Below, one piece after another: positions 55,461 to 59,349 of a stretch of 64,000 nucleotides of DNA. The stretch is from Sphingomonadales bacterium (GTDB lineage: Bacteria; Bacteroidota; Bacteroidia; Chitinophagales; Chitinophagaceae): assembly GCA_016872195.1 (NCBI GenBank), contig VHAT01000008.1:1-64000 (forward strand). Direction: 5' to 3'. Below the pieces are notes generated by a model, which ran no database searches, had not been told where the DNA came from, and saw only the letters and a list, made by a program, of their open reading frames with translations. The first letter of the stretch is position 1; each line of letters opens with the position of its first letter. The position numbers were made by a program, and so were the translations under genes.

Positions 55461-58154
55461 TTATTCCAGTACCGGGCGAAGCCATTTCTCCGCCTCCTCC
55501 AAACTCATTCCTTTACGGCGGGCATAGTCTTGTAATTGATCGCGGTCTATCTTTCCCAATCCAAAATAATGACTGCCGGGATGGGCAATATACCAACCAC
55601 ATACCGAGGCGGGTGGATTCATGGCCAGACTCTCGGTAAGGGTAATGCCAATATGCTCCGTGGCTTGTAGCAGCGAAAAAAGTTTACGTTTTTCCGTGTG
55701 GTCAGGACAAGCCGGATAACCGGGAGCCGGACGTATCCCCTGGTATTTTTCAGCGATCAGCTCATCATTGCCGAGCACTTCGTTCTTGGCGTATCCCCAA
55801 TATTCTTTTCGTACTTTTTCGTGTAAGCACTCAGCAAAGGCTTCAACAAAGCGATCTGCCAAAATTTGTACCAAGATCTTATTGTATTCGTCTTGCTCGC
55901 CAGCGTAGTGATCGATATATTTTTTAGCACCGTGTATTGTAACGGCGAATGAGCCCATGTAATCGGTCCCTAACTCAGCCGGACAAATAAAATCAGCCAG
56001 CGAAAAATTAGGTTGCCCTACCGCCTTTTTAAGTTGCTGTCGCAACGATTCGATCTTGACCTCACCTTGTTCGGTTTGTAAGGTGATCGTATCGGCATTA
56101 TTGCTGGTCGCCGGCCAAAATCCGATCACGCCCTCGGCACGAAACCAATTTTCTGCCACAATCTTTTTTAAAAGCCCTTGAGCATCATGAAAAAGTCGAG
56201 TGGCTTCAGTTCCAAAGATAGGATCGGAGAGTACAGCCGGATAGCGTCCGGGCATTTCCCAGGCAATAAAGAAGGGCCCCCAGTCAATATACCGAGCAAT
56301 GGTCGCCAGGTCATAATTTTTTAATACCTGTATGCCCGTGAACGAAGGAGTAACCGGGCGATATTTCTTCCAGTCAAAATATTCTTTGGTCACAACGGCC
56401 TCTTGATAGGGGATCAGGTTTTTCTTTCCTTTGTTCAAGAATTGCTGTTGTAGTCCTTCGTATTCCGTCTGGGTTTGTTGTAGGAGTTCTTTTTTCTGCT
56501 CTTTGTTCAGCAGCGAGCTGACCACGGTTACACTGCGCGATGCATCCAGCACATGTAATACACCGTGCCCATATTGAGGAGCGATCTTTACAGCGGTATG
56601 CATTCTCGATGTAGTGGCCCCGCCGATCAACAGGGGTTGTTGCATACCTCTTCGTTTCATCTCATGCGCTACATGAACCATTTCATCGAGAGAAGGGGTT
56701 ATCAATCCACTTAGTCCTATGATGTCAACTTGTTCCTGCTCGGCCTTGTCCAATATTTTATCGGCCGGCACCATCACACCCATATCGATGATCTCGTAGC
56801 CATTGCACCCCAGCACCACACCAACAATATTCTTTCCAATATCGTGCACGTCTCCTTTTACAGTAGCCAGTAATACTTTCGGCACCTTTCCCTGACTTGC
56901 CAGCGGGTTGTTTCGTTTTTCTTCTTCTATAAAAGGGGTCAGCCAGGCCACACTTTTTTTCATAACCCTTGCACTTTTGACGACTTGCGGCAAGAACATT
57001 TTACCGGCGCCAAAAAGATCGCCCACTACATTCATTCCGGCCATTAGCGGTCCTTCTATCACATCTAGTGGGCGAGGATATTTTTTTCTGGCCTCTTCGG
57101 TATCGGTATCAATATAGTCCGTTATACCGTTGATCAGCGCATGTTTTAGGCGATCCTCTACTGAGGTCGAGCGCCATGCTTCATTTTTTTCTTCGGTCTT
57201 GTCCTTAGCCTTAACGGTCTCGGCAAAGGCGATCAGTTTTTCGGTGGCTTCGTTTTGGTCATTGTTCTTGTTCAGGATCACCTCTTCGCACAGGTTTCGT
57301 AAGGTGGGTTCGATCTCGTCATAAACGGCCAATTGCCCGGCATTGACGATCCCCATATCCATTCCCGCTTTTATGGCATGATACAGGAATACCGCGTGCA
57401 TGGCCTCGCGCACGGGTTCATTACCCCGAAACGAGAAAGAAAGATTACTCACCCCACCACTCACCTTGGTGAGCGGCATTTTTTGTTTGATGAGTCGGGT
57501 CGCTTCAATAAAGTCTACTCCATAGTTGTTATGTTCTTCCAGGCCGGTCGCGACAGCAAAAATGTTAGGATCAAAAATGATGTCTTGCGGATCGTAGCCA
57601 AGACGCGTGGTCAGCAGCGTATAGGCGCGCTCCGAGATCTCTACTTTGCGCTGCATGGTATCGGCCTGTCCTTTTTCGTCGAAGGCCATTACGATCACGG
57701 CGGCTCCAAAGCGTTGGCAGATCTCAGCTTGTTGTAAAAATTTTTCTTCTCCTTCTTTCAGGGAGATCGAGTTGACGATGCATTTTCCTTGTACGCATTT
57801 TAATCCGGCTTCAATGATCTCGAACTTAGAACTATCGATCATCACAGGAATACGGGCAATATCAGGCTCACTTTGCAAGAGATTTAAAAAAGTGGTCATG
57901 GCCACTACCCCATCCAAAAGTGCATCATCCATATTTACATCCAATATCTGGGCCCCACTTTCGACCTGCTGGCGCGCCACGCTCAAGGCTTCCTCATATT
58001 TGTTTTCACGAATCAGGCGGGCAAACTTCTTCGATCCGGTCACATTGGTGCGTTCGCCTACATTCACAAAATTGGTCTCGGGCCGGATCACCAGGGGCTC
58101 CAGTCCGGATAGTCTCATAAAGGGAAAAATAGTAACAGGCTCTTGCATCATCAC
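55461..58154 (-). CDS. metH: Methionine synthase, pterin-/cobalamin-binding and activation domains (MetH lacking the Hcy domain)
   Basis: [21 protein letters not shown]; cobalamin motif [18 protein letters not shown]-terminal activation domain ending [19 protein letters not shown]. Confidence 0.96.
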
Positions 58155-58161
58155 AATTTAT

Positions 58162-59172
58162 TTACACAGTGGAGGGTATCGTTTTTTCTACGACAGGCAA
58201 TGGACGAGGGGTTAGTCCTTTTACTTTTTCTGCAATATGACGAATATGATCGGGCGTGGTGCCACAACAACCACCGACGATATTTACAAATCCTTCGCGT
58301 GCCCATTGTTCTAAATAATGCCCGGTATCCTCTGGTCGTTCATCGTACTCACCCATAGCATTAGGTAGCCCTGCATTGGGATAGGCCGAGACATAGCAAC
58401 TCGCTAGTTGTGATAGTTCCTCAATGTGCGGACGCATTTCTTTTGCTCCTAAGGCGCAGTTCAACCCCACGCTCAAGGGTCTGGCATGCATCACGGAAGT
58501 ATAAAAGGCCTCCAGGGTCTGTCCGCTCAAGGTCCGTCCCGATGCATCGGTGATGGTTCCGCTGATCATGATCGGCAGGGGCTCTTTTTTGGTTTCGTGA
58601 AAATATTTTTTGATGGCATAGATCGCTCCTTTTGCATTGAGCGTATCAAATATGGTTTCGATCAGCAAAAGATCTACGCCACCCTCCACGAGTCCCTCTA
58701 CCTGCTCGTAATAGGCCGCGACTACCTCATCGAATGTTACGGCTCTATAGCCGGGATTATTCACATCGGGCGATAAGGATAGTGTCTTATTGAGCGGACC
58801 AAAGGCACCGGCCACCCAAGCGGTTTTTCCTGAGCGTGAAATGGCTTCGCGCGCACATTTCGCGGCGGCCATATTTAGTTCCTTGGCCAACGATTGCATT
58901 TCGTAGTCTGCCATAGCAATCGTCGTACTGCTAAAGGTGTTCGTCTCTATGATATCGGCACCTGCTTCTAGGTATTGCTGGTGAATACCAATGATGATCT
59001 CCGGTTGCGTAATATTCAGCAGATCGTTATTCCCTTTTACGTCGCAGGGCCAATTTTTGAATCGCTCTCCGCGATAATCCGCTTCGGCCAGTTTGTGTCG
59101 TTGGATCATGGTGCCCATGGCACCGTCTATCACCAAAATTCGTTGCTGTAAGCTCTCTTCGATACGCTGCAT
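58162..59172 (-). CDS. Homocysteine S-methyltransferase family protein (separate Hcy domain of MetH)
   Basis: [51 protein letters not shown]. Confidence 0.95.
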
Positions 59173-59318
59173 GTCATTTAGGGTTTGTTCCTGACACGAC
59201 CGGTATGTATTGGTTCGGAAAAACTGAGTAAACGATAGGAGTCTGTTGGAACTCCCAGCCGTTTATTAGTTCTGTTGAGGAAAGGCCGAACAATAAACAA
59301 ATCCGCCCGTAAGGGACA
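59173..59318 (-). ncRNA. Candidate structured 5' leader RNA of the split metH operon
   Basis: Nested stems read on the minus strand: UAUUGUUCGG/CCGAA(C)CAAUA, AGAACU/AGUUUU, UAAACG/CGUUUA, GGAGU/ACUCC, then GUGUCA/UGACAU covering the AU of the start codon. Confidence 0.55.
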
Positions 59319-59349
59319 CAAAGTTACAGCAGGTTGGTCAATTGACCAA
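59319..59349 (-). promoter_or_regulatory. Predicted metH promoter with TAACTTTG -7 element and 16-bp palindrome TTGGTCAATTGACCAA
   Basis: -7 element at 59319-59326 (minus strand), perfect palindrome at 59334-59349 in the spacer/-33 region. Confidence 0.6.

Follow-up and report, generated by a model that had tools for sequence, protein, structure and literature searches.

A pseudoknot of the SAM-II/SAM-V type in a widespread, uncatalogued leader RNA of metH in the family Chitinophagaceae

Described SAM riboswitches and the metH leader

The long-loop form of the SAM-II riboswitch (RF01726) is listed for Bacteroidetes and marine sequences (PMC2864571). Among the 245 genomes of the class Bacteroidia sampled here, RF01726 was over the cut-off in 30, none of them in the Chitinophagaceae, and wherever the downstream gene was read it looks like metK by sequence, with metK confirmed at L190. 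These elements follow the form GUGG-nnn-GAUUUG-n-(A/C)UUGCAA-CCAC-A-rich-UGCUAAAA. In the structure of the SAM-V riboswitch, the bulged U pairs with the adenine of the ligand and A50 holds the amino-acid end of SAM (PMC6061858); the published SAM-V model is one of translational control, in which the ribosome binding site is occluded. SAM-I riboswitches (RF00162) also control methionine genes, and do so in the same family, but their architecture is unrelated to that of the element described here.

Our work concerns the leader of metH, the methionine synthase gene, on the minus strand (59318-59173) of the window, which is the whole stretch of 64,000 nucleotides analyzed from a Chitinophagaceae genome. 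The gene upstream is recR, and metH follows in two parts (Table 1). A sequence-only reading had proposed a structured leader, possibly a riboswitch of a novel class. The leader and every pairing it named are present in the window sequence, and the main proposal has held up: the element occurs throughout the family, lies almost only 5′ of metH and just 3′ of a −7 box, and contains covarying helices. It is a real, widespread, and uncatalogued cis-regulatory RNA of methionine synthase, and probably a riboswitch. The idea of a novel class survives only in part, in that no Rfam family matches the element; its core is of the SAM-II/SAM-V type, which makes it a variant of a known fold and not an unrelated class. 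The most conserved feature, the loop GAUUUGUUUAUUGUUC and its downstream complement, was missing from that description.

The Rfam scan suggested in the sequence-only reading assigned the element to no known class. There was no relevant match in 12 kb around the leader at an E-value of ≤5, no family matched the 126-nt element at an E-value of ≤10, including RF01726, RF00521 (SAM-II), and RF01826 (SAM-V), and nothing matched at the relevant positions in 14 divergent relatives. RF01726 was over the cut-off in 0 of 100 genomes of the family, and none of its matches fell at the element. SAM-I (RF00162) matched neither the element nor any other place in the window's own genome (a 1.9-Mb assembly), and the cobalamin riboswitch (RF00174) gave no match, with neither its B12 box nor its core found, confirming the earlier remark that both the SAM-I core and the B12 box are absent. 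Our literature search returned no paper joining SAM-II, riboswitch, and Chitinophag, and the genome-wide RNA surveys searched do not mention metH, although other surveys may exist.

The conserved core and its distribution

On the comparative evidence, the conserved heart of the leader is an H-type pseudoknot and not a plain rod. The near-invariant loop GAUUUGUUUAUUGUUC is closed by the covarying hairpin P1 and pairs with GAACUAAUAAAC downstream to form P2. Across 117 distinct leaders, the loop shows one substitution in total and its complement only three A-to-G changes. Two P2 pairs have two-sided changes (U-A has become C-G in family f13, and C-G has become U-A in both f13 and f17), two others vary on one side by wobble, 6 of the 11 are invariant, and one is broken only in a single cell. 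Pairing holds in 99.1% of the alignment cells. None of 500 shuffles reached the observed P1/P2 covariation on any of five measures, and sliding the P1 and P2 partners abolished the signal. Because such shuffles ignore relatedness, the compensatory changes that arose in different families carry more weight. Comparison of relatives' leaders, which had been proposed as a check, hence brought out covarying pairs in P1, P2, and the inner rod. The linker between P1 and P2 can be as short as a few nucleotides or as long as about 90 nt and in many cases contains an extra hairpin, and insertions of 1 to 2 nt directly 3′ of GAUUU occur in three members (L147, L148, and L156).

Table 1. Features of the metH leader and its genes in the window, in the order of transcription
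Feature	Positions	Strand	Basis
TAACTTTG, −7 promoter box (TAnnTTTG)	59319..59326	-	TAnnTT(T/C)G ≤60 nt upstream in 149/157 copies
P1 5′ strand, CGGGC	59305..59309	-	Changes on both sides at each of the 7 pairs tested, 50 sequences
GAUUU, proposed major-groove third strand	59299..59303	-	Invariant in 117 leaders
P2 5′ strand GUUUAUUGUUC (segment A)	59288..59298	-	Pairs with segment B; compensatory changes in other families
P1 3′ strand, GCCUU	59282..59286	-	Same P1 covariation
Segment B GAACUAAUAAAC, P2 3′ strand	59261..59272	-	Near-invariant
Variable hairpin GGAGU...ACUCC inside rod	59238..59255	-	Two-sided changes at all 6 pairs, 91 leaders
Segment C core CGUUUA, partner of UAAACG (59265-59260); excludes P2	59229..59234	-	Conserved CGUUU
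CCGAACCAAUA, partner of UAUUGUUCGG of segment A/P1; outer rod helix	59208..59218	-	No clear counterpart outside L010-L013
metH N-terminal part (homocysteine-binding domain), regulated gene	58162..59172	-	NCBIfam methionine synthase, profile positions 11-343
metH C-terminal part, directly 3′ of N-terminal part	55461..58154	-	NCBIfam TIGR02082 metH, above cut-off

A covariance model built from 30 leaders of the window's genus (R1) located the element in 221 of 297 genomes and 80 of 104 genera of the family, almost always once per genome. Within the genus itself, BLASTN similarity to the leader was present in nearly every genome sampled, directly 5′ of metH where the locus was read. Two further families of the same order, f13 and f17, have the element as well, while a search of the class outside this order with the core model R3 gave nothing convincing (3 weak matches at E-values of 0.01 to 0.03). 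The association with metH is close: an automated search found the N-terminal gene downstream of 150 of the 157 distinct copies and the C-terminal gene downstream of 2, and by reading we found a metH start downstream at L066 and L157 and the C-terminal half at L155; L017 ends before any callable gene. In one genome (G380), both metH halves are preceded by a copy of their own (L206 and L207). At one locus of family f13 (L209), the element stands before an apparently disrupted start of the C-terminal half. A genome-wide repeat or mobile hairpin was ruled out, the element being single-copy in its own genome.

The TAnnTTTG box, which we take to be the −7 promoter element of the Bacteroidetes type, ends 11 to 19 nt 5′ of GAUUU in most of the 157 copies. 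The aptamer therefore probably starts very close to the 5′ end of the mRNA, and in the window transcription would start near 59313, 5′ of P1 and not downstream of the stem region, where a start would have spoken against the sequence-only reading.

Relation to SAM-II and SAM-V

The core comprises P1, GAUUU, and a UUG paired with a C-bulged U-AA, as in SAM-II and SAM-V riboswitches, and the window element keeps the order of RF01726 (P1, GAUUUG, AUUG, P1′, linker, CUAAU). A descriptor of this core (P1, GAUUU, UUG, P2, and CUAA with the bulged U), written after the likeness had been noticed, recovers 141 of the 157 elements and 22 of the 30 from RF01726, and its unrelated matches number only about five in 1.3 Mb of strand sequence. 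The contact residues of SAM-V (PMC6061858) kept in the element are U8-U10, A18, U19, U20, G21, U47, A48, and A49, and U59268 is the counterpart of the bulged U. The one listed contact that has changed is A50, which is U in all members (U59265 in the window). By analogy with SAM-V (PMC6061858), we infer that GAUUU acts as a third strand.

With RF01726, the element shares an H-type pseudoknot in which the P1 hairpin is followed by GAUUUG and a UUG pairs with C-U-AA around a bulged U, an A-rich linker that tolerates inserts, occurrence in the class Bacteroidia, and a methionine-cycle gene downstream. However, the RF01726 elements examined are apparent metK leaders, whereas the window element lies 5′ of metH. 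P1 is GUGG/CCAC in RF01726 and CAGGY/GCCUG in the element, P2 is UUGCA/UGC in the former and UUGUUC/GAAC in the latter, position 50 is A in 28 of 30 RF01726 elements, and the distal GUUUA/UAAAC extension is found only in the element. Among the genomes sampled, the two have separate ranges, and their covariance models do not recognize each other's members; R3 missed the RF01726 elements as RF01726 missed ours. We state with fair confidence that the element works like SAM-II/SAM-V but, as the models fail in both directions, do not file it in these Rfam families. With SAM-V it has in common a pseudoknot with covarying P1, a P3-type hairpin in the linker, a conserved third-strand sequence, and the bulged U, and occlusion of the ribosome binding site is proposed likewise for the short forms of the element. 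The differences from SAM-V are the change of A50 to U and the nature of the site to be occluded, UAAUAAAC-AUG, which is not a Shine-Dalgarno sequence.

Proposed control of methionine synthase and competing readings

We consider it likely that the metH mRNA starts with a SAM-sensing aptamer, a lineage-specific variant of the SAM-II/SAM-V fold, that works as an OFF switch for methionine synthase. The P1 hairpin and the P2 pseudoknot would form with GAUUU in the major groove of P2 as a third strand, the adenine of the ligand would pair with the bulged U (59268) while its sulfonium faces the U-A.U triple, and the bound ligand would lock segment B into P2. Because the core matches known S-adenosylmethionine sensors, the cell probably shuts down methionine synthesis when SAM is plentiful. 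If this is true, the element is a common SAM-II/SAM-V variant that about three-quarters of the sampled genomes of the family carry and that current Rfam models miss, and it offers a natural test of how far the pocket tolerates a changed contact residue.

The short forms suggest how the switch could act. In 18 divergent members, P3 and segment C are absent and segment B ends 1 to 15 nt 5′ of the start codon (ACUAAUAAAC-AUG in the extreme case), which points to translational control; a gap of 16 to 49 nt occurs in no member. Bacteroidetes rarely use Shine-Dalgarno sequences, and segment B is therefore plausibly the ribosome landing site. This anatomy suggests an OFF switch by occlusion, in which ligand binding would block translation of methionine synthase. 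The short forms, with an aptamer strand as the likely landing site, would thus be a clean case for control of translation by a riboswitch in the absence of a Shine-Dalgarno sequence.

In long leaders, including that of the window, P3 consists of segments B and C paired around the variable hairpin. Of 134 long leaders, 124 contain CGUUU, where about 27 would be expected, and 0 of 500 shuffles matched the covariation score of the inner hairpin. Segment B cannot pair with A and C together, so the pseudoknot and the rod are mutually exclusive, and the inner rod helices are probably the alternative state of the long leaders. Segment B would pair with segment C when no ligand is present, and the ligand would trade the rod for the pseudoknot. 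When the pseudoknot was forced in leaders with a start codon more than 75 nt away, the modelled accessibility of the start site fell by more than 0.05 in 35 of 108 and rose in 8 of 108, a weak and inconsistent effect, and there was no trend in the 25 leaders with a nearer start codon. An intrinsic terminator as the read-out is unsupported, as inspection revealed no consistent U run 3′ of the rod.

The sequence-only reading had instead made the rod the working structure, with its terminal loop contacting and switching a hairpin at the start codon. The rod is indeed the minimum-energy fold of 59330-59160 (−47.8 kcal/mol, z = −2.9; 2 of 200 shuffles were as stable), and its inner helices UAAACG/CGUUUA and GGAGU/ACUCC are conserved and covary. 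The remainder of that model is not kept in relatives, and the short forms are entirely without the rod. The outer helix is, on comparison, clade-specific (Table 1); in place of the start-codon hairpin GUGUCA/UGACAU, L010-L013 have GUCG/CGAC in another register and L014 has neither; and for the proposed GGAAC/GUUCC contact, L010 and L011 keep GGAAC/GGAAU but not GUUCC. We regard this model as highly improbable.

Does the element sense SAM or another ligand? SAM-I riboswitches were found in 81 of 100 genomes of the family, one taken per genus, and where examined they lie 5′ of an O-acetylhomoserine sulfhydrylase gene (L218) and of a gene that is homoserine dehydrogenase-like by sequence (L219). 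Among the family genomes covered by both searches, 62 of the 74 that bear the element also have SAM-I. This coexistence and the change of A50 argue against assuming SAM automatically, and the same fold and cis-regulation could serve SAH, methylthioadenosine, a folate, a corrinoid, or another methionine-cycle metabolite, with the lineage-wide change from A to U (paired with A18) retuning the pocket and the element working beside SAM-I to tune methionine synthase. U50 would no longer hold SAM by its amino-acid end, and there is a precedent in the spermidine-sensing variant that arose from SAM-I via altered contact residues (PMC10853860). However, the A18-U50 combination is also present in 2 of the 30 RF01726 elements, one of them confirmed to lie 5′ of metK, and the element retains both the bulged U and the triple that faces the sulfonium. 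In addition, in genus g56, where the element is missing, a canonical SAM-I riboswitch lies immediately 5′ of metH (L227, 1249-1352; 77.6 bits, cut-off 44.4), apparently as its replacement; seven other element-free genomes examined had no Rfam element at metH. The agreement of the pocket and the SAM-I riboswitch before metH in g56 lead us to favor SAM, and a changed ligand appears unlikely.

It is less probable still that the leader is the target of a protein, whether an RNA-binding repressor or a transcription factor that reads the repeated GTTTATnAGTTC on the DNA, and that the likeness to SAM-II is convergence. Both strands of one helix are near-invariant, which suggests sequence-specific recognition, and segment A resembles segment C, with the complement of B resembling both. 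On the other hand, P1, P2, and P3 covary as RNA, the linker takes inserted hairpins that a DNA operator would not need, and the match to the SAM-II core is well above background.

Some minor observations concern sequences near the aptamer. Between segment C and metH, 24 of the 134 long leaders (L040, L073, L086, L097, and 20 more) contain GTTGYGTCRCWCACTT, which is rare elsewhere (33 occurrences in 671 kb of fetched loci) and absent from the window. In the window, GGAUUUGUU (59304-59296) of the aptamer loop is complementary at 8 of 9 positions to AACAAACCC (59189-59181), just 5′ of the metH start codon; the complement was not evident in the relatives inspected. In the RF01726 elements (L164-L193), the core AAAAUGCUAAAA often holds an AUG that opens a short frame starting with MLK (e.g., L167 and L178). 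Translation of a leader peptide may start inside the RF01726 aptamer, or the frame may be a mere consequence of the conserved core sequence.
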